Assembly: GCF_007483665.1 (NCBI RefSeq)
Contig: NZ_VIQO01000023.1
Span: forward strand, 62,001 to 126,000
Direction: 5' to 3'
Length of the DNA stretch: 64,000 nucleotides
Source: Catellatospora sichuanensis
GTDB lineage: Bacteria; Actinomycetota; Actinomycetes; Mycobacteriales; Micromonosporaceae
Part shown: one piece after another, positions 14,491 to 33,796 of the stretch
Numbering within the stretch: position 1 is the stretch's first letter
Layout: each line of letters opens with the position of its first letter
The notes under the pieces: model-generated
The model's database searches: none
What the model was told of the DNA's origin: nothing
The model's input: the letters and a program-made list of their open reading frames with translations, nothing else
Program-made: the position numbers and the translations under genes

Positions 14491-15804
14491 TCAGGGGCGT
14501 CCGGCGAGGTTGAACCGCTGGTTGGTCCCGCTGCCGCAGGTGTACTGGATCAGCGTGGCGCCGTCGGCGGTGGACGCGCTCGTCACGTCGATGCACTTGC
14601 CGCTGCTGACGGACACGAGCCGGTAGACCTTCGCGGAGACCAGGCTCAGCTGGAACGTCTGATTGGCGGCACCGTTGCAGGTCCACTGGATGATTTTGGC
14701 GTTGTTGGCGGTGGAGCCGCCGTCCACGTCGATGCAGAGGCCGCTGCCCGCGTTGGCGATGGTGTAGGTGCCGACGCCCACGGGCTGGAACCGCCACGAC
14801 TGCGGCGACGCGCCGCTGCAGGTGTTCTGCCGCAGCTGGTTGGCGGCGGTCGCGTTGACCGCGTCGACGCACTTGCCGCTGTGCTGCGCCACCGCGGTGG
14901 ACGTGAAGGCGGGGCCGGTCGACAACGTCTCGGTCCGCACGACGGTGCCGTGCCGGCATCCGGCGCAGGCGACGGCGCTCAGACCGGTCCAGCTGTTGAG
15001 GTTGGAGCTGGTCGCGGTCCAGATCCCGCCGTTGGTGTACTTGTCGATGTAGATGCGCCAGGTGCCGTCGGTCATCTGCGCCAGGGACGGCCCCTCGTAT
15101 CCCGAAGTCCACAGCGTGCCCTGGTTCGTCCAGCCGCTGGTGACGCTGGTCGTGCTGGTCCAGTGCTCGATGAACTTGGACGTCTCGTTCTTGACGAACG
15201 CGTGGTAGGTGCTGCCGGACTTCGCGACGAAGGTGTCGATGTGGTTGAAGCCCAGCCCGTCCATCTGCACCGGACCACCCCACGAGGTGAGGGCGGAGTT
15301 CTGCGCGGTGTAGACATAGGGCCGGAAGCACGCGGAGCAGGTCGTCTGCGCGATGCTCGCGATGACGCGGACGGTGCTGCCCTCCACGTAGAACTCAGGC
15401 GCCCACACGAACTTCGTGTCGGTGATGCCCGAGTTGATGGTGGCCACGTGCGTCCACGACAGCAGGTCGGTGCTGGAGGCGATGTTGAACGACGTCGAGT
15501 TCGTGGTCCAGGACTGGACGGTGTAGGCCACGAAGTACTTGCCGTTGAAGTTGATGATGCTCGGATCGCGCAGCACACCGGACGGGCCCCGGTAGTTCGT
15601 GTCGGCCAGGACGCCGAAGCTGGTGCCGTTCGTCGACGAGTACAGCCACAGCTCCTCGTCGGCGACGGCGTCGCCCTTGAACGTGGCGTAGACGAACGAC
15701 GTCGCGGCGGACGCCGGCGCCGCCATCACCACGGTGCCGGCGACGATGCCGAGCATCGCGGTGACCAGCACCCGCGCAACCCGGTGCAGAGCAGGAATTC
15801 TCAC
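14491..15804 (-). CDS. Secreted GH43-like beta-propeller glycosidase with RICIN domain
   Basis: 437 residues from the GTG at 15804 (GGAG upstream). A Sec signal peptide with cleavage after PASA (about residue 31) is followed by a five-bladed-propeller catalytic domain (~32-305) with GH43-type blade motifs LRDPSIINFNGKYF, FVWAPEFYVEG and GPSLAQMTDGTWRIY; the Asp in RDP and Glu in APE are plausible catalytic residues. Residues ~310-437 form a ricin-type trefoil carbohydrate-binding domain with repeated GKCIDV and QxW-like units. It probably acts outside the cell on plant arabinan, arabinoxylan or arabinogalactan; the exact substrate cannot be read. It is divergent from another RICIN glycosidase and shares palindromic operators with it. 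Confidence 0.8.
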   Translation of the reverse strand: MRIPALHRVARVLVTAMLGIVAGTVVMAAPASAATSFVYATFKGDAVADEELWLYSSTNGTSFGVLADTNYRGPSGVLRDPSIINFNGKYFVAYTVQSWTTNSTSFNIASSTDLLSWTHVATINSGITDTKFVWAPEFYVEGSTVRVIASIAQTTCSACFRPYVYTAQNSALTSWGGPVQMDGLGFNHIDTFVAKSGSTYHAFVKNETSKFIEHWTSTTSVTSGWTNQGTLWTSGYEGPSLAQMTDGTWRIYIDKYTNGGIWTATSSNLNSWTGLSAVACAGCRHGTVVRTETLSTGPAFTSTAVAQHSGKCVDAVNATAANQLRQNTCSGASPQSWRFQPVGVGTYTIANAGSGLCIDVDGGSTANNAKIIQWTCNGAANQTFQLSLVSAKVYRLVSVSSGKCIDVTSASTADGATLIQYTCGSGTNQRFNLAGRP

Positions 15805-16376: not shown

Positions 16377-17837
16377 GTGCACCCCTCGACCAATCCCCGA
16401 AACCACCGGCGCGCTTTCGTCCGGGCCGTCACCGTCCTGCTGGCGCCCGCACTGGCCGGGCTTGTCACGCTCGCCGCCCCAGCCGCCGCCGCGCCGGTGA
16501 CCATCACCAACGGTGTCCAGTTCACCGCCACCAACGGCAGCATCGTGCACGCCCACGGCGGTGGAATCCTCAAGGACGGCAACTACTACTACTGGTTCGG
16601 CGAGAACCGGACCGCCGACAACCACTTCTACGCCGTCTCCGTCTACCGGTCGACGGACCTGAAGAACTGGGAGTTCCGCAACAACGTGCTGACCCAGTCC
16701 TCGGCGTCCGAGCTCGCCTCGGCCAACATCGAGCGGCCGAAGGTCATGTACAACGCGAGCACCGGCAAGTACGTGATGTGGATGCACAAGGAGAACGGGT
16801 CCGACTACGGCGAGGCCCGAGCCGCGGTCGCGGTCTCCAGCACCATCGACGGCAACTACGCCTACCAGGGCAGTTTCCGGCCGCAGGGCACGTACATGTC
16901 GCGTGACATCACGATCTACAACGACAACGGCGTCGGCTACATGATCTCCGCCGCCGACGAGAACTACGACCTCATGATCTACCGCCTCACGCCGGACTTC
17001 CTGGGCATCGCGTCGGTGGTCGGCAACTTCTGGAACGACGCCCACCGCGAGGCACCCGCGCTGTTCAAGCGCGGCAGCACCTACTTCATGCTGACCTCGG
17101 GCGCGACGGGCTGGAGTCCCAACCAGGCCAAGTACGCCACCGCGTCCAGCATCTCCGGCCCATGGTCGGGCTGGGCCAACGTCGGCAACGCCACCACCTA
17201 CAGCTCCCAGCCGACGTTCGTGCTGCCGATCACGGGCACCGCGGGCACCAGCTACCTGTACCTGGGTGACCGATGGGCAGGCGCGTGGAGCGGGCCGGTC
17301 AACGACTCGCAGTACGTCTGGCTCCCGCTCACCTTCCCCAGCAGCACCAGCATGAGCATGAACTGGCACCCGCAGATCACCATCGACGCCGCCGCGGGAA
17401 CCATCACGGGAATCTCGCCCACCTACTACCGCGTGACCAACCGCAACAGCGGCCGGGTGATGGACGTCGTCAGCAACTCCACCGCGAACAACGCCGAGGT
17501 GAAGCAGTACACCTGGAACGGCGGCGGCAACCAGAAGTGGCAGTTCGAGGACGCAGGTGGCGGCTACTTCCGGATCGTCAACCAGAACAGCGGCAAGTGC
17601 CTGGATGTGGCCAACGCCTCGACCGCCAACGGCGCCAACATCATCCAGTGGACCTGTGGCGCCGGCACCAACCAGCAATGGCAGTGGGCTGCCATCGGCA
17701 GTTACTTCCAGATCAAGGCTCGGCACAGCGGCAAGTGCCTCGACGTGGTGAGCTCCGGGACCGGCGACGGTGCCGACATCCAGCAGTACACCTGCGGCAG
17801 CGGCAACAATCAGCAGTGGACCCGCACCCAGGTCTGA
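16377..17837 (+). CDS. Secreted GH43 (subfamily 24-like) exo-beta-1,3-galactanase with RICIN domain
   Basis: 486 residues from a GTG. The signal peptide has an RR-containing n-region and ends near PAAAA (residue ~39). The propeller domain (~40-345) has GILKDGNYYYWFGEN, YRSTDLKNWEF and IERPKVMYN, a pattern seen in GH43_24 exo-beta-1,3-galactanases. Residues ~350-486 are a ricin trefoil with three GRVMDV/GKCLDV units. It probably releases galactose from type II arabinogalactan outside the cell; subfamily is recalled from motif pattern, not computed. It should be co-regulated with the divergent GH43-like gene. Confidence 0.78.
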   Translation: MHPSTNPRNHRRAFVRAVTVLLAPALAGLVTLAAPAAAAPVTITNGVQFTATNGSIVHAHGGGILKDGNYYYWFGENRTADNHFYAVSVYRSTDLKNWEFRNNVLTQSSASELASANIERPKVMYNASTGKYVMWMHKENGSDYGEARAAVAVSSTIDGNYAYQGSFRPQGTYMSRDITIYNDNGVGYMISAADENYDLMIYRLTPDFLGIASVVGNFWNDAHREAPALFKRGSTYFMLTSGATGWSPNQAKYATASSISGPWSGWANVGNATTYSSQPTFVLPITGTAGTSYLYLGDRWAGAWSGPVNDSQYVWLPLTFPSSTSMSMNWHPQITIDAAAGTITGISPTYYRVTNRNSGRVMDVVSNSTANNAEVKQYTWNGGGNQKWQFEDAGGGYFRIVNQNSGKCLDVANASTANGANIIQWTCGAGTNQQWQWAAIGSYFQIKARHSGKCLDVVSSGTGDGADIQQYTCGSGNNQQWTRTQV

Positions 17838-17950: not shown

Positions 17951-18991
17951 CTACACCGTGGCGATCTCGAAGTGCACCGGCGTGGCCCGGTCGGCCGGTC
18001 CGCCCAGCGCGAGCAGGTCGACGTCGGTGGGCTGCGCCCGCAGCCCGGTCAGCGCCTGAGCCAGCGGATCACGGACGTCCAGGCCGATGGTGAGGAACGA
18101 GTGCAGCCCGTGCAGCCGGTTGCAGGCGTGCCTGACCAGGAAACGCAGCGTCTCCGGGTCGGGCGCGCACGGGTTGACCACGGTGCGGTAGCTCAGTTCC
18201 GCACCCGTGCGCGGCAGGCGGGGCGCCCGGAACAGCGGGGCCGCGACGTTGAAGGCGATCCGGGCAGCCGCCAGCCGGGGTGAGTAACCGGTGATGCGCA
18301 TCTGCTTGATGTCGTGCTGGTTCCACAGGCCGACGAACCCGGCGAGCTCGCCGCCGGGACGCCGGGCCACCAGGTACTCCAGGTTCGGTCGGGTGAGCGG
18401 GAACGACTCGCAGACCGGAGCGAACTGGCGGGACGCGGCCAAGCGACGCCACAGCTCGACCATGTCGGGCTCGTCCGCCGGATCGGCCACCGACACCGTG
18501 AGGTCGCTGGGCGGGATGCTTCGGCGGGTCAGCAGGTCGATGCTGTGCGATCTGATGGTGGCCCGTCGGCGTACGCCGGGTTCGACCTGCCGGCGCAGCA
18601 TCTCGACGGCGTCGTTGCCGGCCAGGACGGTGCCGATCAGCGGTGCGTCCGGGCCGGCCAGTTCACGGGCGGCGGCCTGCGCCCACTGCGCCAGCACGCG
18701 GGCGGCACCGCGCCGCCGGTACGCCGGATGCACCTTGAGATCACCGACGTAGCCGAGCACCGCCGGACGGCCGTCGACGAAGGACGGTCGGCGGGCGACC
18801 GCGACGCAGGCGATCGGGCCGTCGTCACCGTCGACGACCCCCACCCGCCAGGCGTCGCCCGCGATCCGGTTCAGCGCGAAGAAGTCGGGCCGCCGGTCGA
18901 TGCACAGCGACAGGTCGCCCTCCATCGCGCAGCGGGCCGCCAGGGCGACCAGCGCCGTATTGTCCCCCGGCCGGGCGTCACGGACCCTCAC
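17951..18991 (-). CDS. GNAT-family acetyltransferase, last gene of the carrier-protein operon
   Basis: 346 residues from the GTG at 18991, which overlaps the upstream stop by four bases (GTGA). The N-terminal GNAT fold (~1-150) contains the acetyl-CoA loop HPAYRRRGAARVL; the C-terminal half (~170-346) looks like a second, more diverged GNAT-like or unique domain. It is about twice the length of a single-domain GNAT. In this operon it may acylate the pathway product or an intermediate, or provide self-protection; neither is shown by the sequence. It is the distal gene of the seven-gene cluster. Confidence 0.75.
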   Translation of the reverse strand: MRVRDARPGDNTALVALAARCAMEGDLSLCIDRRPDFFALNRIAGDAWRVGVVDGDDGPIACVAVARRPSFVDGRPAVLGYVGDLKVHPAYRRRGAARVLAQWAQAAARELAGPDAPLIGTVLAGNDAVEMLRRQVEPGVRRRATIRSHSIDLLTRRSIPPSDLTVSVADPADEPDMVELWRRLAASRQFAPVCESFPLTRPNLEYLVARRPGGELAGFVGLWNQHDIKQMRITGYSPRLAAARIAFNVAAPLFRAPRLPRTGAELSYRTVVNPCAPDPETLRFLVRHACNRLHGLHSFLTIGLDVRDPLAQALTGLRAQPTDVDLLALGGPADRATPVHFEIATV

Positions 18992-20130
18992 GGCGTCACC
19001 TCGCAGATCGCGAAGCGCCGCTGGCACAGGCTGCGATCGGTGCGCATCAGCTCCTCGCCCCGCGCCCGGTCCTCCCGGACGGCGTGGCGCCAGCGCGGCG
19101 GCACCTCGGTCCAGCCCACGAAGTTGCGGAAGACCAGCCGGGCGCCCGGCCGGGCCGTGCGGACGATCTCGGTGAACAGCTCGTCGATCTCGGCGGCGCT
19201 CAGCCATTCGCAGATGTTGGACAGGGCGAACCCCGCCATGCTGCGGTCCGGCCGCGTACGCAGATAGTCGGTGAAGGTGCCGTCGACCAGGCAGAGGCGG
19301 TCCACCGGAACTTCAGCCTCCAGGTAGGGCGGGTGGCATCCCACCGGATAACCGCCGGTCAGCAGGTGGTGCAGGAAGTAGTTGCCGCCGATGTGCAGGT
19401 CGGTCAGCGTATGCTCGGCGACCTGGCGGAAGTGCCGGGCGTAGCTGGGATCCTCGACGTGGGCGAAGAAGCGCTCGTCGTAGGTGCGCCGCAGCACCAG
19501 GCGGTTGCACAGCACCTGGAACAGCAGCCGCCAGCCGAAGGTGTCCCAGTCCCGGCGGTAGAACTCCCGTTGCTGGTCGAGTGTCCGCAGGGCGAGCAAC
19601 GTCCCGATCCGGCGCGGATGGACCACGCGCAGGGACCGGGCGATCAGGCGCATCAGCCGCTCGGTGACCCCCGCCTGCAGCACTCCACCGACGATCGCTT
19701 GCGGGTGGGCGTCCCAGTAGCCGCGCGCCCCGGCAGTGAGCGCGCCGCGGATCTGCCCGTACGCCAGCCGCCGCGCGTCCGGTGCCATGGGGACGCCACC
19801 GAGCAGCCCGAGCGCCGAGCCGGGCGACAGGTGCGCGACCGCCGCCGCCTTCAGTTCCACGAGGTGGTTCTGGGTGCGGTTGACGTCGACGCCGACGACC
19901 TCGGCAGCGCCCGCGGCGAGCAGCGAGAGCGCCGTACAGCCGGCGGAGCTCACCACGGCGATCGGGCCGTCCCACCGCCCGGTGAAGGCGGCGATCTCCA
20001 GCTCCGGGTCCTCCCGGACCTGGGCGAAGTACAGCCGGTCGTCGACGGCACCGGTCAGCTCGGTCCGCCGAACCGATGCCGGCTGCTGTGCCGTTTCAGG
20101 TCGCGGTGGCACTTCGGTCCTCGGTGACAC
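18988..20130 (-). CDS. DUF3419 / BtaA-like SAM 3-amino-3-carboxypropyl transferase
   Basis: 380 residues from a GTG with AGGAG five bases upstream; this start makes the gene overlap the upstream SDR gene by 35 bp in another frame. The family (DUF3419) includes BtaA, which transfers the 3-amino-3-carboxypropyl group of S-adenosylmethionine to diacylglycerol. Recognisable parts are the nucleotide-binding segment SSAGCTALSLLAAGA, GVDVNRTQNHLVELK and a C-terminal SNICEWLSAAEIDELF. There is no BtaB-like methyltransferase nearby, so betaine lipid synthesis is unlikely; in this operon it may aminocarboxypropylate a small metabolite. Family assignment is firm, substrate unknown. Confidence 0.75.
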   Translation of the reverse strand: MSPRTEVPPRPETAQQPASVRRTELTGAVDDRLYFAQVREDPELEIAAFTGRWDGPIAVVSSAGCTALSLLAAGAAEVVGVDVNRTQNHLVELKAAAVAHLSPGSALGLLGGVPMAPDARRLAYGQIRGALTAGARGYWDAHPQAIVGGVLQAGVTERLMRLIARSLRVVHPRRIGTLLALRTLDQQREFYRRDWDTFGWRLLFQVLCNRLVLRRTYDERFFAHVEDPSYARHFRQVAEHTLTDLHIGGNYFLHHLLTGGYPVGCHPPYLEAEVPVDRLCLVDGTFTDYLRTRPDRSMAGFALSNICEWLSAAEIDELFTEIVRTARPGARLVFRNFVGWTEVPPRWRHAVREDRARGEELMRTDRSLCQRRFAICEVTP

Positions 20131-21157
20131 GGAAGCTCCTCTCGATCAGGTCGGTGCACGCCGCCTCGACCAACGCCGTGGCGTTCTGCGCCCGATATCC
20201 GTGCCACGCCGCCCGCAGGCGGTCGGTCCGGAAGTGCTTGGGCAGGTACAGCTGTTCGGCGAAGGGCGTGACGGAAGCAAGCGCGGGCTGTAGCGGCCCG
20301 CCGCGCAGCCGCTGCGCGGCCTGTGCCATGTCGTGGAAACTGGCCCGGTCGCAGGGGATCGGGCGGGGCAGCATCCGCCGCAGAAAGCTCGGATCCTGTT
20401 CGAAGACGGCGAAGGCGGTGTCGATCGCGGTGCCGAGCGTCACCGGGCCGGGGCAGACCTGGTAGATGCCTGGCGGCGCGGTGAGCAGCGCCGTCACGGC
20501 GTCGACGGTGAACTCGGCTGTGGCCAGGCTCAGCGGCGTCGCCGGATCGCCCGGCAGCAGCGTCAGCAGCCCGGAGTGGTAGAGCCGCATCGTGTGGTGG
20601 AACGCGTTGTACTGCCCGACGGCACCGGTCGTGTCCTCGGCGATCACGGTCGGCAGGCGTGCCACCGTCACCGGCAGCCCCGGCGGGTCGAGCAGGCACT
20701 CCTCGGCCGCCCACTTCGACCATTCGTAGTGGTTGACGAATCCGGCGTCGTCGTGGCGGGTCTCGCGGACCTCGCCGCGGCGCCGGCCGGCGCTGTAGAG
20801 CGTGGACAGCAGCATCAGCTGGTCCAGCCGGTCGCAGCGGTGCGCGAACTCGCGTACCCGCGCCGTCCCCGCCACGTTCACCCGGCTGGCGGTGTCGTGG
20901 CTGACGTCGAAGCGGATGACGGCGGCGGCGTGGACGATCCGCGTGATTTGGCGGGGGTCCACGTGTGCGAACGGGTCGGCGTCGCGCAGGTCGACCGGCA
21001 CGACGGGGGCGTCGGCGACGCGGGCCAGCCGGGCCCGCTTGCGGTCGAGTTCCGTTTCGTCCGCGCAGCGCACCGCCAGGATCAGGTCCTCGCCGCGCAG
21101 CGCGGCCGCGATCCGCTGCCCGAGGTAGCCGTCCGCTCCGGTGATCAGCGTGGTCAT
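20096..21157 (-). CDS. NAD(P)-dependent SDR, thioester-reductase-like
   Basis: 353 residues from the ATG at 21157, which overlaps the ligase stop by four bases. It is an extended short-chain dehydrogenase with the Rossmann loop TGADGYLGQR near the N-terminus, IVHAAAVIRFD, and a YEWSKWAAE active-site YxxxK. The closest relatives by pattern are the NAD_binding_4 / carboxylic-acid-reductase R domains that reductively release thioesters from carrier proteins. In an operon with a carrier protein that role is attractive, releasing an aldehyde or alcohol, but an epimerase or ketoreductase role cannot be excluded. Confidence 0.75.
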   Translation of the reverse strand: MTTLITGADGYLGQRIAAALRGEDLILAVRCADETELDRKRARLARVADAPVVPVDLRDADPFAHVDPRQITRIVHAAAVIRFDVSHDTASRVNVAGTARVREFAHRCDRLDQLMLLSTLYSAGRRRGEVRETRHDDAGFVNHYEWSKWAAEECLLDPPGLPVTVARLPTVIAEDTTGAVGQYNAFHHTMRLYHSGLLTLLPGDPATPLSLATAEFTVDAVTALLTAPPGIYQVCPGPVTLGTAIDTAFAVFEQDPSFLRRMLPRPIPCDRASFHDMAQAAQRLRGGPLQPALASVTPFAEQLYLPKHFRTDRLRAAWHGYRAQNATALVEAACTDLIERSFRVTEDRSATAT

Positions 21158-22035
21158 CGGGCCGCCACCTGCCCGGCCGCGGCGAGCAGGTCCGGCCAGC
21201 CGTCGGGCTCCGGGCCGTGCCGGTCGACCAGCGCGTACAGCCATCGCTCGAGGCCGAAGGCGAGACAAGCGGTGCTGGCCGGGACGCCGTCGCGGGTGAT
21301 GGCGAACGCGGTCCCGAAGTGGTCGTGGTGGAGGTTGGCCGAGCCGAGGGCTAGCGAGCCGCCGTACGTCGCCTCGTGCTTGACCGGCTGGATGCGCTGC
21401 AGGAGGTGACCGGGGTGGCGCTCGGGGCGGAAGAACGGGTCGGTCGCCGGTGTCCAGTCCATCGGCAGGTCGATCAGCAGGGCGAAGTGGTCCACCGCCG
21501 CGCGGGCCTCCACCAGGAACGACGCGGTCTCCTCGGCCGTGCCGAGGCATACGATCTCCCGCATCGCGAAGCTCCATTGGCGGCGCAGCGGATCGTAGTC
21601 CGACTCACGCCGGAAGCAGGTGTTGCGCGTGGTCACGTAGCCGGCTGCGGGCAACTGCTCCCCCTGGTGCCCGTGGTAGACGTGATAGCAGGCCGCCGGA
21701 GTGAGCACGGCGGTCACCGGAGCCGTGCGGGTCAACGCGACCGCCCCGGACTTGTCCACCACCGGACCGTCGGCGAACTCGGCGAGGTTGGCCTCGGCCG
21801 AATCGAGCGCTGTCGCGAAGGTGACCTGGTGCGGGAAGGACCGCAGATGCCCGGCGAGGGACGAGGCGGGCAGCGTCATCGCGTACGCCTCCTCCTGCGA
21901 ACGCCACCGGCTTGCGATGCACCGGAAGGCGCGGTCGCAGTCGTTCGCCAGCGCCAGCAGCGGCCCGGTCAGCCCGGCCTGGCCGCAGGGATCCCAGCGC
22001 AGCCCGATCCGGGCCAGGTCCGCCGGCCCGTTCAC
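21154..22035 (-). CDS. Amino acid:[carrier protein] ligase, class II aaRS-like
   Basis: 293 residues from a GTG overlapping the carrier-protein stop by four bases. It resembles the truncated seryl-tRNA-synthetase homologues that adenylate a small amino acid and transfer it to a carrier protein rather than to tRNA. Zinc ligands of the family appear as C116 (PAACYHVY), E160 (MREIVC) and C257 (TACLAFG), with spacing close to that of the Bradyrhizobium enzyme. Class II motif 2 is CFRRESDYDP and motif 3 is CLAFGLERW. No tRNA-binding arm is present. The adjacent carrier gene is its obvious partner. Amino acid specificity (Gly, Ala or similar) cannot be read. Confidence 0.82.
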   Translation of the reverse strand: MNGPADLARIGLRWDPCGQAGLTGPLLALANDCDRAFRCIASRWRSQEEAYAMTLPASSLAGHLRSFPHQVTFATALDSAEANLAEFADGPVVDKSGAVALTRTAPVTAVLTPAACYHVYHGHQGEQLPAAGYVTTRNTCFRRESDYDPLRRQWSFAMREIVCLGTAEETASFLVEARAAVDHFALLIDLPMDWTPATDPFFRPERHPGHLLQRIQPVKHEATYGGSLALGSANLHHDHFGTAFAITRDGVPASTACLAFGLERWLYALVDRHGPEPDGWPDLLAAAGQVAAR

Positions 22036-22274
22036 GACGGCACCCCGAAGCGCGCCATCATGGCGTCGATCCCGTCGAAGTCGCCCATCCGCAGCTGTTC
22101 CACGTCGATGGGTGCGCCGCGCAGCCGCTCGAGCAGGATGATGAGCTCGGGCAGGTGTACCGAACGCAGGACACGCAGCGTGAACAGCGCGGTGTCGTCG
22201 GTGATGGCGACGTCCCCGGCGTGGCGCCGCACGAACGTCCGCAGCTGCTCGCGGATCTCGGTCTCAGAACGCAT
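22032..22274 (-). CDS. Stand-alone acyl/aminoacyl carrier protein
   Basis: 80 residues, acidic, predicted four-helix carrier fold. The usual DSL phosphopantetheine site is replaced by RSV with Ser38 as the likely attachment residue (VLRSVHLPEL). It overlaps the upstream oxygenase gene by 11 bp and the downstream ligase by four. The neighbouring aaRS-like ligase should load an amino acid onto its phosphopantetheine arm, which the oxygenase, ketosynthase and reductase would then act on. The loss of Asp before the Ser is unusual but seen in ligase-linked carriers. Confidence 0.75.
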   Translation of the reverse strand: MRSETEIREQLRTFVRRHAGDVAITDDTALFTLRVLRSVHLPELIILLERLRGAPIDVEQLRMGDFDGIDAMMARFGVPS

Positions 22275-23145
22275 CGGCCGGCTCCTCGGTGAGAACGCCC
22301 GCTGCCGTCAGGAACCGCAGGCAGTCCGACGACACCCGGCGCCGGTGGGCTCGCTGGCCGGGCGCGGACCAGGCCGCCTCCGCCAGCTCCCACGGGTCGT
22401 CGAGGCCGGCGTCGGCGTAGACGTCAGGGTGGTAGTACTCGCGCCAGGTGGCGGTCACGAACCGGCCGAGGTCGTGGCGTATCTCGGCGGCCGTCGGCGG
22501 ATCCCAGTCCCCCGCCTGCCACAGCGCCGTCACGAGGCGCCGGCCGAACACCAGGTGCCGGGCCTCCTCGCGGTGGTGGCTGTCGTTGATGAAGCGGGCC
22601 AGCGGGTGCAGCCGCCCGTCGCGGGCCTGCACCCGGTTGTAGTGGTCCACGATCTCCTCGAAGATCAGCGTCTTGGCGAAGAACAGGAAGTCGTCGACGT
22701 CGCGCGGCCGGTCGGTCCCGAACGACGCCTGACGGCTGCGGTGGACCCGCGCGTACCGGGTGCAGAAGCCGCCGAAGTAGACGCTGTGTTTGTTCTCCTC
22801 GTCCAGGAAGTGGTGCAGGTAGCCGGTCGAGCCCGCCAGATCGCTGCGGTAGAGCCGCGCGGCGAGCCCCTGGATCAGCGCCTTCTCCCCATGGATGTTG
22901 AGGCTGTAGAAGCCGGCGGCCTCGTGGAAGGCGACCCGGCGGCGGGCCTGGTCGTCCAGGGCCGCCCACGCCGGCGTGCCGTTGAGGCTCACGTACTCCG
23001 GGGTGCCGAACCAGTCCCGCTCGGGGTCCACCGCGGACGGCCAGTCGACCAGGGTGTACGGGTTCTGGTGCGCCCGCACCGACAGCCGGCTGAGCCGGTC
23101 GGCGGTCTCCGACACCTGGGCCAGCGCGGTCGCCAGGGCGCTCAT
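22264..23145 (-). CDS. AurF-like diiron N-oxygenase
   Basis: 293 residues from the ATG at 23145, overlapping the ketosynthase stop by four bases. It is an all-helical ferritin-like protein of the p-aminobenzoate N-oxygenase type. Candidate iron ligands are E87, E117 and H120 (EENKH), E163 or E164 (FEEIVDH) and the HxxxExxH set H190/E194/H197 (SHHREEARH), matching the ligand order of AurF. In an operon with a carrier protein and an amino acid ligase it may oxidise the nitrogen of a tethered amino acid. C-oxidation or desaturation by this fold is also possible. Confidence 0.75.
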   Translation of the reverse strand: MSALATALAQVSETADRLSRLSVRAHQNPYTLVDWPSAVDPERDWFGTPEYVSLNGTPAWAALDDQARRRVAFHEAAGFYSLNIHGEKALIQGLAARLYRSDLAGSTGYLHHFLDEENKHSVYFGGFCTRYARVHRSRQASFGTDRPRDVDDFLFFAKTLIFEEIVDHYNRVQARDGRLHPLARFINDSHHREEARHLVFGRRLVTALWQAGDWDPPTAAEIRHDLGRFVTATWREYYHPDVYADAGLDDPWELAEAAWSAPGQRAHRRRVSSDCLRFLTAAGVLTEEPADAF

Positions 23146-24098
23146 CGCCCGACCACCTCGAGCACCGCGCACTGCCAGTTGAGCCCGAACCCGGCCATCG
23201 GCAGCGCGATCCGCTGTCCGGGCCGCGCCCGCCCCGAGTCGAGCAGCGCCGACAGGTTGGCGATCACGTCGGCCGAGATGACGTGTCCGACGTCGGCCAG
23301 TGTCGGGGCCCATACCCGGGCGTGGTCGAGTTCCAGCAGCCGGGCGAGGATCTGCCACGCCTTCTCGTGCGTGTTCTGGGTGACCACCCAGTCCAGCTCG
23401 GCCGGGGTCAGCCCGACGCGTGCCGCGGTCTCCCGGACCAGCCGGTGGGTGTAGGCGAAATACGTTCCGACGGTCTCGTCGTCGCCCGCCCGGCCCAGGC
23501 CGCCGTTGGTGATCTGGTGCACGGTCAGCAGGCGGCACACGTCCGGGTCCCGGCCGACCACGCAGGCAGCGGCCCCGTCCGAGATCAGGTTGTACGCCTG
23601 CTCGTACCAGGCGCCGACGGGAAACCGGTCGGCGGTCACACACAACACCCGGCGCCAGCCCGGCTCGGTCGTCAGCAGCGCGCCCGCCACCCGCAGCGCC
23701 CCGAGCGCACCGGTACAGGCCTGTTGATGCAGCCCGACCACGATCGCCCGGGACATGCCGAACTCGGCCTGCAGGCGGCCGGCCGGGAAGTCCATGAGGT
23801 CCTTCACGTCGCGGACGGGACCGCTCCCGGCCTCGCCGCCGGGCAGGCACGTGGCGTAGACGATCGCGTCGACGTCCGTGAGGTCACCGCGGGCCGCGAT
23901 CTCCGCCACCGCGGCACGTGCCAGGTCGTACGCGGTGTCGTCCGGTTCGCAGACGTGGTGCCACCGGAAACCGGCCGCTTCCAGGTCCTCCGGAGCCGAC
24001 CGAAGCAGTCCCGCCTCGGCCGACTCGCGTATGTGCCGCTTCTGCGCGCCCAGAGCATGGGCAAACGATCCGATGTAGAGCCCGTTCATGGATCTCAT
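23142..24098 (-). CDS. KASIII-like ketosynthase / acyltransferase
   Basis: About 318 residues; thiolase fold of the FabH/KASIII group. The nucleophile is C128 (QQACTGALGAL). The usual His is H244 (TQNTHEKAW). The position of the third triad residue, normally Asn in GN(T)S, is H272 in ADVGHVISADV, giving a Cys-His-His set as in classical KAS I/II. No strong Shine-Dalgarno distinguishes the candidate starts at 24125, 24098 and 24089; 24098 is chosen from homology. It is the first gene of the operon and may condense or transfer an acyl unit with the carrier-bound amino acid. Confidence 0.78.
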   Translation of the reverse strand: MRSMNGLYIGSFAHALGAQKRHIRESAEAGLLRSAPEDLEAAGFRWHHVCEPDDTAYDLARAAVAEIAARGDLTDVDAIVYATCLPGGEAGSGPVRDVKDLMDFPAGRLQAEFGMSRAIVVGLHQQACTGALGALRVAGALLTTEPGWRRVLCVTADRFPVGAWYEQAYNLISDGAAACVVGRDPDVCRLLTVHQITNGGLGRAGDDETVGTYFAYTHRLVRETAARVGLTPAELDWVVTQNTHEKAWQILARLLELDHARVWAPTLADVGHVISADVIANLSALLDSGRARPGQRIALPMAGFGLNWQCAVLEVVGR

Positions 24099-24248
24099 GC
24101 TCGTACCGGCGGGCCGCACGGGCATGAGCTCGCGTACTCAGATGTCGCTGAGTCGATTGCCCTAGCCAGGTGGGGCGGGTGACGCACACGCGGAACAGAT
24201 CGGCCAGGTGGGCCGACGTTCGACCGGCGATCCGGTTAGGGTGCGGCC

Positions 24249-25244
24249 GTGACAAGTGATCCGCTGCTGGCCGAGGTCTGCCGGGCGTTCGGTCTGCCCG
24301 CCGTGTCCTCCGCGAGCCGGCTGGCGCACGGGCTGATGAACCGCAACTGGCGGATCGCCACCGACGACGGCCGGGAATACGCCGTCAAGGAGCTGCGCGA
24401 CGCGCCCGAGCACGCCCGGACGCAGCATGCGCTGCTGCGGCGGCTGGCGGAGCATGACATCCCGGTGGCGGTCCCGATCGCCGACGCCGCAGGCGAGACG
24501 GTGGCATACCTGGCCGGCGTCGGGTTCACGGTGGCGCCCTGGGTCGACGGCGAACACCTGCCCGGAGCGAAGCTGGACATCGACGCGTGCGACCGGTTGG
24601 GACGGCTGCTCGGTCGGGTCCACACGGCGCTGGTCGCGGTCCGCCCGGACCTGCCCGTTCCCGCGCAGGCGGATCCGCCGAGCCGGGCGGCGGCCGCCGA
24701 GTGCATCGAGCGCTACCTGGCCGCGATCGCCGCCCGGCCGGTTCCGGACCCGGTCGACCGGGTCGCGGCCGATCATCTGCGCTGGCGGCGGGCGTTGCTG
24801 GCGGCGGAGGTCCGGCCTGCGGGACAGGGGCCGGAGCGGGGCTGGACCCATGGCGACTTCCACCAGTTCAACCTCGTCTGGCGGGCCGGTGCCGTCGTCG
24901 CCGTGCTGGACTGGGACCGGGTACGCCGGCAGCCGCCGGGCACCGAGCTGATCCGCGCCTGCCTGCTGCATTTCGCCGGCGACGACGGCGTGCTCGATCT
25001 GGATCGGATCGCCGCCGTCGTGCGGGGCTACCGCGCGATCCGGCCCGTCGACGGCGAGGTCCTCGCCGACCTCGTCCGTCGGGCGTGGTGGCACTGGTTC
25101 ACCGACTTCTGGCCGCTGAACTGGCGCTACGACCGCGGCGACACGTCCTGTGATCACCAGTTCATCAGCAACGAACGGATGCTGCGCTGGTGGACCGCGC
25201 ACCGCCCGCAGGTTTGCGCCGCCCTGTCCGGCCGACCGGAGTGA
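24249..25244 (+). CDS. APH-family phosphotransferase
   Basis: 331 residues from a GTG. Aminoglycoside-phosphotransferase/choline-kinase fold: N-lobe lysine in YAVKELRD, the Brenner motif HGDFHQFNLVW with catalytic Asp, and the metal-binding Asp in VLDWDRVR. It resembles homoserine kinase type II and uncharacterised small-molecule kinases as much as resistance enzymes. It is divergent from the carrier-protein operon with 150 bp between, so it may phosphorylate the product or provide self-resistance; that link is inference from position only. Confidence 0.75.
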   Translation: MTSDPLLAEVCRAFGLPAVSSASRLAHGLMNRNWRIATDDGREYAVKELRDAPEHARTQHALLRRLAEHDIPVAVPIADAAGETVAYLAGVGFTVAPWVDGEHLPGAKLDIDACDRLGRLLGRVHTALVAVRPDLPVPAQADPPSRAAAAECIERYLAAIAARPVPDPVDRVAADHLRWRRALLAAEVRPAGQGPERGWTHGDFHQFNLVWRAGAVVAVLDWDRVRRQPPGTELIRACLLHFAGDDGVLDLDRIAAVVRGYRAIRPVDGEVLADLVRRAWWHWFTDFWPLNWRYDRGDTSCDHQFISNERMLRWWTAHRPQVCAALSGRPE

Positions 25245-25292: not shown

Positions 25293-26339
25293 ATGACAGA
25301 CGGGGTTCTTGACGAGGTTTACCAGCGACTGCAGCAAACCGGGCCGGAACGGGACGGCTGGCTGTCCAACCACGCGCCCATGGCGGCGGAAGCACTGGTC
25401 CGCCACGGGCACGGCGCCCAGGTGCACGCCTGGGTCGACGGCTACGCCGACCGGCTGTCCGAACGCCCGCGCGGCATCCAGCGCATCTCGGCCGGGCAGT
25501 GGCGCGAGCCGCTGGGCGACCCGGTCCGCACCGGTGACTGGCTCACCTTCTTCGACCGGCAGCTCATCGAGCGGCCCTGGCGCGAGGTGCTGGTCGAGTG
25601 GTGGCCTCGGCTGCTACCGGGGGTGGCGGCCGGTGCCACGCACGGCGTCATCAGGGTCGGGCACGCCGTGCGCGCCCTGCTCGACAGCGAACAGGACGGC
25701 GACGCGACGCCGGCCCGGATCGCCGAACTGGGCGCGGGGCTCGGCTACTGGGCCGCCCGCTGGCAACCACTCGCACCAGCCGGCAGGGGCCCGTACCGGT
25801 CGACCGATCCGCGCTCGGCGCTGGACGCGGTGCCCCGGGTGCCGCACCAGCGATCGGGTATCCGAACCCGGCTGGCGCAGCTCGCCGACCTGCCCGGGTG
25901 GCCGGAGTCGGCCGGGGCGGTGCCCGGTGACGGCGAGTCCGGCGGACCGGCCCGACTGGCCGCCATCGTCGAGGCTGCGGTGCTGCGGTTCGGCACGCAC
26001 GGGCACGGCAATCCGGTGATGCTGGTGCATGCGGCCACCGCGCCGAACGCGATCGCCCGGGTCCTGCCGGTGCTGCCCCACGCCCTATGGGAACCGAGCG
26101 TCCAGGCCGCCTGGGCGGCGACCGCCGCGGTGACGAGCGCGTACTCGCCCGCGGAGGCACGGGCGATGCCGGGTCGGGGCGCGGCGGACCCGGCTGACCT
26201 GATGGCACGCGGGTTGCACGACCGGGACTCGCATGGAATCAAGTTCATCGACACGGCCCTCGACGTGTACCGGCACACCGGCGGGCAGGCGGTGCTGGAC
26301 GTGGCGACATACGCCAACGACCTGATCGCCCGAGACTAG
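25293..26339 (+). CDS. Questin oxidase family protein (DUF4243)
   Basis: 348 residues, helical, with histidine-rich segments (LSNHAPMAAEAL, GATHGVIRVGHA, GTHGHGNPVMLVHAATA) typical of the questin-oxidase-like family. Family members in fungi open anthraquinone rings in a Baeyer-Villiger-like reaction; bacterial members are mostly uncharacterised. It follows the kinase gene by 48 bp on the same strand and may share its transcript. A role with the neighbouring biosynthetic operon is possible but not supported directly. Confidence 0.75.
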   Translation: MTDGVLDEVYQRLQQTGPERDGWLSNHAPMAAEALVRHGHGAQVHAWVDGYADRLSERPRGIQRISAGQWREPLGDPVRTGDWLTFFDRQLIERPWREVLVEWWPRLLPGVAAGATHGVIRVGHAVRALLDSEQDGDATPARIAELGAGLGYWAARWQPLAPAGRGPYRSTDPRSALDAVPRVPHQRSGIRTRLAQLADLPGWPESAGAVPGDGESGGPARLAAIVEAAVLRFGTHGHGNPVMLVHAATAPNAIARVLPVLPHALWEPSVQAAWAATAAVTSAYSPAEARAMPGRGAADPADLMARGLHDRDSHGIKFIDTALDVYRHTGGQAVLDVATYANDLIARD

Positions 26340-31240: not shown

Positions 31241-33796
31241 TCAGCGCAGCGTCGCAGTGAAGGAGCGGCCGAAGGCCTGGCGGGTGACGACGTCGATGCA
31301 TGTGCCGCCTGGCACGGCGCTGACCCGCACCTCCTCGTCGGCCGACAGCGCCTGCATCCGCCGGCCGTGGATGACCAGCGAAATCGACTCCCGCTGCATC
31401 GTCGGGTCGGACACCGCGACCGAGGTGGTGCCGTCCCGCCCGGCCCGCATGATCACCGAGGCTGGGCCGCCGATCGCGAGACGTCCGGCGTGGTGGGTGC
31501 CGGTCGCGAAGACGTTCGCGGCGATCAGGCCCAGTCCCGTGTGTTTGACGGCCTGGACCGAGGTCGTGATGGCGAGGACGGAGACCGGTCCACGGGCGTA
31601 CGACTCCAGTCGCCGTGCCGACGCGCCCGGGACCATCGCGTACGCCATCGAGGCGGATGGCGCGGCGGCGGGCTGCTCGACGAGGACCGCGAAGACCTTC
31701 TTGCTTACCTGCGTGTCGGGATTGGCCACGCGTACGCTGCGGCGGCTGCGGACCACGTCGTCGAGGGCGACGGTCGCCTGCTGCTCGTCGAGGAAGACGT
31801 ATCCGACGGCGGTGCCCTGACTGCCGTTGGCGTAGCGCAACCAGGCCAGCCGAGCGGCGCCAGGGCCCGACCAAGCCGTGCCGTCACGCAGCGCGCCGGT
31901 GAGGTCGACGGCGTCCGACGGGGCGGCGATCCGGGTGTCGATCGTCGTCGTCACCGCCCGTCCCGCAGTGTCGCCCAGCCCGGCGGCGAGCACGACGATC
32001 TCGTCGTCGAGCATGAACCAGGACTTGGTCGCGTCGGCGTTGCGGTAGACGACGAAGTCGTCCGGCAGGAGCCCGGCCTGCTTCGCCGCGTACGCGGCAT
32101 CGTCGGCCTGGACGAGCCCCACCGCGCCGTACGCGTCGAGGACGGCACCGCCGGAGTACGTGTTGGTGCCGCGGGGGAAGTAGACGTAGGTGTTCTGCGA
32201 CTCGGAGGACGAGGTGAAGCCGAGTTGCGGATTGTCGTACCAGGCGGTGCCGTACAGCTCCGGGACGGTGCGCCGGTGCTCGACGGGCGCGGTCACGCCG
32301 CCGAGGCGGTAGGGCGAGACGGTGGTGTAGTAGTCGACGCCGTAGGCCTGGGTCTGGTCCTGCCCGGCCAGGTAGAGGTAGTGGGCGCCGTCGCCGTGGA
32401 ACCAAGGCATGAGGTTCTCGCCGCTCATGTACTCGTACTTGCTGATCCTGCTGGAGCTGCGGGCGAGCGCGAAGGCGTAGCCGGGGCGGCGGTGGACCGT
32501 CTTGTCCATGGCGTTGAAGGCCACATGGCGTGCAGCGGGGTTGAGGTCGCGGGCCGGCACCGCGCTGTCGGCGAGGATGTCGGCGTAGCGGGCGATGCTG
32601 ACGGGTGAGACGAAACCGGCCGGGTTGAGGGCCGACCGTGCGGACTCCACCACGTGCTTGACGTATCCCTTCAGCGCCGCCGCGTCGCCGCCGGTGGCGT
32701 AACCGGAGAGGTCGACGACGGCCTCGACGACCGCGGCCACGTCGGTGTACCCGGTGGTGGTCCGGGAGACCGCGCGCCCCTTGACGATCTCCATCATCCA
32801 GCCCTCGAAGATCAGCGGGGCGAAGCCGTCGACCACCCAGCCCTGCACGACACCGACCAGGTCGCCGCCCTGGGCGTAGCTCGTGCCGTCGAGGATCTTG
32901 ACGGCCTGGACGACGCGGGTGAGCAGACCCTTGCCGTAGGAGCCGGTGTAGGCGACCGAGGCGTGCTGGAGGAAGGAACCGTCGGCGTAGTAGCCGTCGG
33001 TGACACCGTTCTGCAACCGGTACGGGTCGACCGTGGCGAAGACGGTGAGCTGGTCGGCGATGGCTTTGCTGATGCGGGCGTCGTCGCCGAGCACCGCGCC
33101 CTGGAGGATCCGGTTCGTCGTGATGTCGGCGAGGTTGGCGCCGGTATGGAAGCGCGAGCCGAGGTCGACGTCGCCGTGCCTGCCGTTGCGCAGGTAGGCG
33201 TCCATCGAGGCGACGTAGGCGGCGGCGAGACCGGGCCGGTACCCGGACATCTCGTCCATGAGCAGCACGAGCGTCTTGCTCACCGCGGCGGAGATGCCGA
33301 TCTCCCAGTTGAACCAGTTGCCGTAGTAGCCCTTCGACTGGTCGCCGTAGTGGTTGTCGTGCAGCCACGCGAGAGCGTCGATGACTCGGCGTTGGACGCT
33401 CAGGTCGCCGCGCAGTCCGGACGGGGCACCGGGAACGCGGGTCGCCAGGGCGATCTCGTACAGGTACCGGAACGACGTCGTGAGGTTCGGGTCGCTGGTG
33501 CCGAGCGCGACCCCTTTGAACAGCTCGCCGGGCCCGGCCCCGTCCATCGCGGCGAGCCAGGTCCGGGCGGCCGACCCGATGGCGGTGAGCCTGGCGGTGA
33601 CCTCGGCGCGCGTGTTGGACGCGGCGGTGCCCGCGAACATCGCGACGGTGTTGTCGATCAGCAGGGCCTGATCGGTGGCCGCCGCGGCGGTTCCGGCGCC
33701 GGGCGGGGTCGCGGCGCGGGCCCGAAGCGGTTGGGCCACGGCGAGGAGCGCAGCGGCGGGGATCATCGACAAGGCGCCGCGGCGGGAGATCTGCAC
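31241..33796 (-). CDS. Tat-exported PL8-family polysaccharide lyase
   Basis: 851 residues from a GTG with AGGAG five bases upstream. The N-terminus SRRGALS is a twin-arginine signal followed by a hydrophobic stretch ending near RARA. The alpha/alpha-toroid catalytic domain carries the PL8 triad in GNWFNWEIG (Asn), DGSFLQH (His) and YTGSYGKGLL (Tyr); beta-sandwich domains fill the C-terminal half. PL8 enzymes cleave hyaluronate, chondroitin or xanthan by beta-elimination; which one applies here cannot be decided. The downstream-facing neighbour at 33929 carries a golvesin-like domain of the kind found on xanthan-degrading proteins, a weak hint toward a xanthan-type substrate. Confidence 0.85.
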   Translation of the reverse strand: MQISRRGALSMIPAAALLAVAQPLRARAATPPGAGTAAAATDQALLIDNTVAMFAGTAASNTRAEVTARLTAIGSAARTWLAAMDGAGPGELFKGVALGTSDPNLTTSFRYLYEIALATRVPGAPSGLRGDLSVQRRVIDALAWLHDNHYGDQSKGYYGNWFNWEIGISAAVSKTLVLLMDEMSGYRPGLAAAYVASMDAYLRNGRHGDVDLGSRFHTGANLADITTNRILQGAVLGDDARISKAIADQLTVFATVDPYRLQNGVTDGYYADGSFLQHASVAYTGSYGKGLLTRVVQAVKILDGTSYAQGGDLVGVVQGWVVDGFAPLIFEGWMMEIVKGRAVSRTTTGYTDVAAVVEAVVDLSGYATGGDAAALKGYVKHVVESARSALNPAGFVSPVSIARYADILADSAVPARDLNPAARHVAFNAMDKTVHRRPGYAFALARSSSRISKYEYMSGENLMPWFHGDGAHYLYLAGQDQTQAYGVDYYTTVSPYRLGGVTAPVEHRRTVPELYGTAWYDNPQLGFTSSSESQNTYVYFPRGTNTYSGGAVLDAYGAVGLVQADDAAYAAKQAGLLPDDFVVYRNADATKSWFMLDDEIVVLAAGLGDTAGRAVTTTIDTRIAAPSDAVDLTGALRDGTAWSGPGAARLAWLRYANGSQGTAVGYVFLDEQQATVALDDVVRSRRSVRVANPDTQVSKKVFAVLVEQPAAAPSASMAYAMVPGASARRLESYARGPVSVLAITTSVQAVKHTGLGLIAANVFATGTHHAGRLAIGGPASVIMRAGRDGTTSVAVSDPTMQRESISLVIHGRRMQALSADEEVRVSAVPGGTCIDVVTRQAFGRSFTATLR

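Follow-up and report, generated by a model that had tools for sequence, protein, structure and literature searches.

A block of seven small genes from Catellatospora sichuanensis is a real and conserved unit, and it is a branch of a wider pathway that includes acyl-AMP ligase, phosphopantetheinyl transferase (PPTase) and ferritin-like genes. The block lies in a stretch of 64,000 nucleotides (contig NZ_VIQO01000023.1, positions 62,001 to 126,000; hereafter the window), and the host genome measures 9.45 Mb. Tentatively, we read the block as a self-contained biosynthetic operon, a compact branch of this multi-phylum pathway, in which glycine N-oxidation would be combined with aminocarboxypropyl transfer and acylation. 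An earlier note on this DNA, made from the sequence alone, had described the seven genes and a pathway built from them; the wider pathway lay beyond its view.

The genes lie head to tail on the minus strand between 17951 and 24089 and overlap, in transcription order, by 4, 11, 4, 4, 17-35 (depending on the start) and 4 bases, which agrees with the 4-35 bases given in the earlier note. Gene calls together with Pfam and NCBIfam matches also bore out its account of gene number, order and strand. These databases confirmed the family names of six genes; the remaining protein is called a carrier because of its size, its place next to the ligase and an invariant serine. The first gene has three in-frame ATG codons, at 24125, 24098 (where the earlier note ends the block) and 24089.

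KAS, 23142..24089, minus strand: KASIII-like protein with a Cys125-His269-Asp274 triad; alternative starts at 24098 and 24125.
AURF, 22264..23145, minus strand: AurF-family diiron oxygenase; probable ligands E75 (or E87), E117, H120, E163, H190, E194 and H197.
CP, 22032..22274, minus strand: stand-alone carrier protein with Ser38.
LIG, 21154..22035, minus strand: class II aminoacyl-tRNA synthetase (aaRS)-like amino acid:carrier protein ligase; presumed zinc ligands C116, E160 and C257.
SDR, 20096..21157, minus strand: NAD_binding_4 or thioester-reductase-like protein with a Gly-rich motif and Tyr144-xxx-Lys148.
BTA, 18988..20112, minus strand: DUF3419 (BtaA-like) protein, putative S-adenosylmethionine (SAM) 3-amino-3-carboxypropyl transferase; alternative start at 20130.
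GNAT, 17951..18991, minus strand: N-acyltransferase-like protein.
Divergent intergenic stretch 5' of the operon, 24126..24248, no strand: likely place of the promoter, by position only.

A search with LIG gave a match in 48 of 300 genomes of the same family, and we examined 20 of these loci, choosing the 16 top-ranked ligase matches plus four weaker ones. Ten carry all seven genes in identical order and are referred to as type A. Five have the five-gene core KAS-AURF-CP-LIG-SDR without DUF3419 and GNAT in place, two have AurF and ligase without the KAS of the cassette, and three have the ligase without AurF. One of the five core loci, L046, has KAS at the end and a reversed DUF3419 relative (26-29%) upstream. 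The genes on both sides of the ten type A loci change between genera, some being common to close relatives. Since these ten loci keep the block while DUF3419 is rare in the phylum at large (3 of 396 genomes sampled, that of the window included), the arrangement is beyond chance. Furthermore, the six genes for which dN/dS was computed (the set without the ligase) show purifying selection (0.13-0.47 against three relatives). The earlier note had proposed that conserved co-occurrence of these families would support a pathway; we found them together in conserved order in ten genomes of the family and in the wider loci described below.

The core extends well beyond the family. Scanning GTDB contigs with the ligase alignment gave at least 551 confirmed loci, of which we kept 80, with an AurF gene in 53, a KAS gene in 43 and a DUF3419 gene in 13; three of the 27 loci without AurF (L077, L084 and L094) end at a contig edge just before or in the ligase. 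Among the matches listed, Catellatospora species are the nearest named relatives by ligase. The KAS-AurF-carrier-ligase-SDR core occurs in Actinomycetota and in five further phyla, labelled Acidobacteriota, Myxococcota, Omnitrophota, Melainabacteria and Pseudomonadota in the records, though many of these are metagenome bins and may be mislabelled. There it usually comes with acyl-AMP ligase, PPTase and ferritin-like genes, often joined by a second carrier and a methyltransferase, and we refer to such loci as type B. All 36 distinct core loci outside type A have the ferritin-like gene, 33 an acyl-AMP ligase, 33 a PPTase, 24 a second carrier, and 28 a PEMT/ICMT-type methyltransferase (29 with L068, where the gene has a low profile score and is named by Pfam). 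Pfam named these side families in one or two loci each, and elsewhere they were traced with custom profiles. None of the five was found in the ten type A relatives, and the window block lacks them too; it has the five-gene core in common with type B, but carries DUF3419 and GNAT. The ferritin-like protein (L076:12598-13185 and other type B loci) is about 195 residues long and has two ExxH motifs, with no Pfam match over cut-off. Among the titles and abstract openings listed in searches of the open-access PMC literature, with subscription journals outside their scope, none described the core pathway or type B.

A tree of four joined proteins (47 rows, chosen to have SDR; quick search) places type A next to two Nocardia loci, L068 and L072 (support 93, unstarred). 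It requires two changes for DUF3419, which together with GNAT enters the core at two points. Given this position of type A, and since L068 combines DUF3419 and GNAT with genes for a PPTase, an acyl-AMP ligase and a ferritin-like protein, type A looks like a trimmed branch of the wider pathway. Across 47 core loci (states entered manually for the window and, as regards the methyltransferase, for L068), 28 have only the PEMT/ICMT-type methyltransferase, 15 only DUF3419, one (L068) both and three (L046, L078 and L085) neither. This distribution suggests one alkylating SAM enzyme per cassette, either methyl or aminocarboxypropyl. Because it comprises only two independent contrasts, this reading stays a suggestion, and we dropped the pattern as statistical proof.

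We then consider the single proteins, using residue alignments from which same-genome duplicates (9 loci) had been taken out and weak matches excluded by hidden Markov model score thresholds. LIG matches NF005479 (amino acid--[ACP] ligase) with E 1e-34 and 119.7 bits, below the equivalog cut-off of 357, and the solved structure Bll0957 in a profile search with E 1.6e-47. Cys116, Glu160 and Cys257 are found in 56 of 56 rows and align with residues of Bll0957; in ligases of this kind, these Cys/Glu/Cys residues are the presumed zinc ligands. Ser38 of the adjoining CP is likewise invariant (55 of 55 rows), and CP has no Pfam match over cut-off. AURF matches PF11583 with E 6e-40 and 137.6 bits, over the cut-off of 29.6, and has an invariant H190 whose spacing to E194 and H197 equals that of the extra histidine of Dob3. 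In excerpts of PMC12154687, this extra histidine (H225 in Dob3) is said to mark N-oxygenases of the AurF family, so that AURF combines the family match with the N-oxygenase residue. By sequence, the metal-binding and catalytic residues of both the oxygenase and the ligase are conserved; a missing active site in either would have counted against the pathway in the earlier note.

AurF-family matches are present in 100 of 246 genomes drawn from the class. In a tree of AurFs drawn from the core loci and from a minority of these matches (69 rows, 68 different, with the enteromycin oxygenase itself outside the comparison), the 34 ligase-linked AurFs, i.e. 21 of the 52 core AurFs and 13 others, form one clade with a single change (SH-aLRT 93). 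The 35 AurFs without ligase fall outside, where a flank of about 1.5 kb or less at L165-L194 would let a farther ligase gene escape. From one set of twelve loci, four (L195 and L204-L206) gave no match to the AurF profile and stand outside the tree, and L200 is a repeat of L103. Ligase and AurF occur without the KAS of the cassette in 12 distinct loci. Six of these carry a gene resembling nitronate monooxygenase, confirmed with Pfam in L050 and L104 and detected by custom profile in L103, L105, L108 and L109, and only L047 and L199 have an LCM-family O-methyltransferase gene. Some of the 12, e.g. L199, hold a more distant KASIII gene. O-methylation and denitrification are reportedly two fates of glycine nitronates, as a title by He and Ryan from 2021 has it. 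Both fates are also used in PMC9967187, in the part that concerns them. Taken together, the neighbours of the ligase-AurF pairs and the single AurF clade point to a putative glycine-to-nitronate chemistry on the carrier.

Three loci from this comparison deserve separate mention. In Polyangium sp. y55x31 (L080), consecutive genes encode AurF, carrier and ligase and, adjoining the ligase, a class I methyltransferase; large acyl-AMP-ligase proteins resembling nonribosomal peptide synthetases (NRPS) accompany them, and there is no cassette KAS. The AurF of L080 groups with the core AurFs, and the locus is a candidate O-methyl nitronate cluster in a myxobacterium. L050, from the same family as the window, and L104, from Streptomyces tagetis, hold AurF, carrier, ligase and nitronate monooxygenase together with more carriers and PPTase-like and acyl-AMP-ligase-like genes. 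In both, AurF position 87 has changed from Glu to Ile.

BTA matches PF11899 (E 4e-49), and its structure model predicts a class I SAM fold; a sequence search against solved structures returned nothing beyond one chance match (E 0.44). GNAT matches PF00583 (E 3e-7) and, along its whole length, shares 48% identity with the C-terminal half of a DUF3419-GNAT fusion, which occurs as one protein in two Acidimicrobiales (L076 and L081). This gene fusion supports the idea that BTA and GNAT act together, and the pair makes up a separate unit. DUF3419 is found in 22 of the 300 genomes of the family, with 17 strong matches (E < 1e-44), 11 of which are cassette genomes. In the six others (L157-L162), the DUF3419 gene adjoins a very large acyl-AMP ligase protein (1017-1132 residues) and there is no cassette; a small methyltransferase and a hydrolase-like gene are visible in five of them (the contig of L158 ends), the methyltransferase being Pfam-tested in L157 only. 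The DUF3419 family is known for betaine lipids. However, BTA is followed by a GNAT gene in the window as in all 10 type A relatives, and since the BtaB-like N-methyltransferase partner is missing we rejected a betaine-lipid role for DUF3419 here. In a genome of the same order (G449), L164:8065-16044 carries consecutive DUF3419, haem-oxygenase-like and GNAT-like genes, and neighbouring genes resemble methylthioadenosine salvage in their first residues; this is possibly a second set of oxidase, DUF3419 and GNAT.

KAS matches PF08541 (E 7e-14) and PF08545 (E 1e-7). It retains Cys125, whereas the catalytic His of FabH is replaced by Gln238 and the FabH Asn by His269, with Asp274 five residues beyond His269. 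In place of the FabH-type Cys-His-Asn set, a Cys-His-Asp triad with this five-residue gap is found in 50 of 50 rows, and an alignment with ChlB3 shows it too. Excerpts of PMC9573744 describe such a triad for ChlB3 and CerJ, of which CerJ moves malonyl onto a sugar hydroxyl. The best profile match of KAS is FabH (2ebd, E 2e-19, vs E 2e-14 for ChlB3) and FabH also heads the structural list, but FabH, ChlB3 and CerJ ranked close together and we dropped the fold comparison as proof of class. Judged by its triad, KAS is probably an acyltransferase, and the elaboration by a ketosynthase that the earlier note had envisaged is not supported. SDR matches PF07993 (E 3e-25) and has a conserved Gly-rich motif; all 51 rows keep Tyr144 and Lys148.

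In the course that we tentatively favour, LIG would load a small amino acid, most likely glycine, onto CP, and AURF would oxidise the CP-bound amine to the nitro or nitronate level, as the clade and the neighbours of its kin suggest. BTA would move the 3-amino-3-carboxypropyl group of SAM onto an oxygen of the intermediate with release of methylthioadenosine, and GNAT would acylate the new alpha-amine. KAS would take an acyl group on Cys125 and hand it to an acceptor, and SDR would carry out a reductive step, the two enzymes together moving and reducing the acyl unit. Elsewhere in the genome there are six PPTase-family matches, one of which could supply CP with its phosphopantetheine arm. Since sister loci usually carry a methyltransferase in place of DUF3419, BTA may act on the nitronate oxygen by analogy with the O-methyltransferase of the enteromycin pathway. 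Carrier tethering, N-oxidation, the reductase and aminocarboxypropyl transfer are thus kept from the pathway of the earlier note as putative steps, without the ketosynthase elaboration. A more specific joint prediction, which we regard as doubtful, is that the operon makes O-(3-N-acylamino-3-carboxypropyl) nitronates by DUF3419 O-alkylation and that the methyltransferase-bearing core loci of at least five phyla make O-methyl nitronate lipids. To our knowledge, neither this compound class nor such a lipid family has been described.

Several observations weigh against the proposed course. The window block has neither a methyltransferase nor a nitronate monooxygenase, the two documented fates of glycine nitronates, and a nitronate monooxygenase match is absent from six of the 12 ligase-AurF loci without KAS. 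Canonical BtaA alkylates a primary alcohol (diacylglycerol), not a nitronate. The alternation of DUF3419 and methyltransferase has no statistical support, since in one of its two contrasts the methyltransferase is on average the same, and the loci with both or neither enzyme are exceptions to it. Finally, against solved structures AURF gave only chance-level phmmer matches (best E 0.25) and none at E 0.01 in a profile search.

Four other explanations were weighed. It is possible, though on the unlikely side, that SDR fully reduces the carrier-bound acyl group to a primary alcohol, which BTA etherifies while GNAT N-acylates, giving an N-acyl O-alkyl homoserine with an N-oxidised end. The thioester-reductase-like SDR with its invariant Tyr and Lys is consistent with this, as is the primary alcohol that BtaA accepts; because Nocardia L068 has both an ICMT-family methyltransferase and DUF3419, these enzymes need not have a common target. 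The alternation of the two in 43 of 47 loci argues the other way, though it lacks statistical support, and so does the equal presence of SDR in methyltransferase-bearing loci, in rows chosen to have it.

We consider it distinctly unlikely that AURF stops at N-hydroxy-aminoacyl-CP, with KAS N-acylating the hydroxylamine and the hydroxamate, possibly a metal ligand, being released reductively. The acyltransferase-type triad of KAS would suit this role, and HamC acts on tethered valine with a proposed reductive release in the valdiazen pathway (PMC11659414, excerpts). However, the nitronate monooxygenase-like gene in six of the 12 loci with the nearest other ligase-linked AurFs suggests full oxidation there. 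Improbable is a carbon-carbon bond formation in which KAS catalyses condensation, without decarboxylation, between an acyl group and the acidic, nucleophilic alpha-carbon of nitroacetyl-CP. The KASIII fold, the top rank of FabH in profile and structure, the fact that a nitronate carbon should require no decarboxylation, and the condensing role assigned to ChlB3 kin other than CerJ (PMC9573744, excerpts) would all fit, but both FabH residues are replaced and the triad is that of a sugar-hydroxyl malonyl transferase. Very improbable is that AURF hydroxylates or halogenates carbon instead of nitrogen, as CylC-type dimetal halogenases, distant AurF kin (PMC8406957, excerpts), might suggest, since H190 has the spacing seen in Dob3 and the adjoining ligase supplies an amino group.

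If the nitronate course is true, it links the DUF3419 family of betaine-lipid renown to a carrier-based pathway of nitrogen oxidation. A core common to six phyla implies that the chemistry is old or often transferred. Since the gene set is small and free of NRPS and polyketide synthase modules, in vitro reconstruction is feasible, and it can be tested directly what becomes of carrier-bound nitronates and which acceptors DUF3419 enzymes use.

Around the operon, a search for a sigma-70-like promoter or terminator-like site found none. Two genes were rejected as members of the unit, the divergent kinase gene at 24249-25244 and a questin-oxidase-like gene at 25293-26339, since both lack a match next to the block in all ten type A relatives, of which L039 extends just 96 bases upstream. 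Downstream of the operon, 14491-15771 and 16377-17837 encode two secreted-looking proteins, one a GH43 protein with ricin-type lectin domains and the other with lectin and glycosidase-like matches. An 851-residue protein with a secretion-like start (31241-33796) is 79% identical to L037:14899-17430, 1.8 kb downstream of the Allorhizocola block, and is matched in none of the remaining nine type A loci that were fetched.

Compared with known systems, LIG shares the presumed zinc ligands and the class II core with Bll0957, but falls below the NF005479 equivalog cut-off; we know of no N-oxygenase partner of Bll0957. KAS resembles CerJ and ChlB3 in its triad and in the loss of the FabH His and Asn, at just 22-23% identity by structure. 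BtaA/BtaB genes and the block have the DUF3419 protein in common but not the methyltransferase partner. With glycine-derived nitronate cassettes of the enteromycin and denitrification types, the block shares a carrier-bound amino acid, as judged by a ligase with invariant catalytic residues adjoining CP, and an AurF-type oxygenase in one clade (SH-aLRT 93) with AurFs beside nitronate monooxygenase-like genes. Because KAS, SDR, DUF3419 and GNAT stand where those cassettes have a methyltransferase or nitronate monooxygenase gene, we class the block as working like them and not as a member. The akazaoxime proposal, in the part that describes it, uses an NRPS A domain instead of an aaRS-like ligase. 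The ham cluster of valdiazen and fragin, as far as excerpts of PMC11659414 describe it, differs in its NRPS-like loading, the N-N bond of its product and the lack of DUF3419; it shares with our block a reductase and an AurF-like oxygenase, HamC, that acts on a carrier-bound amino acid.

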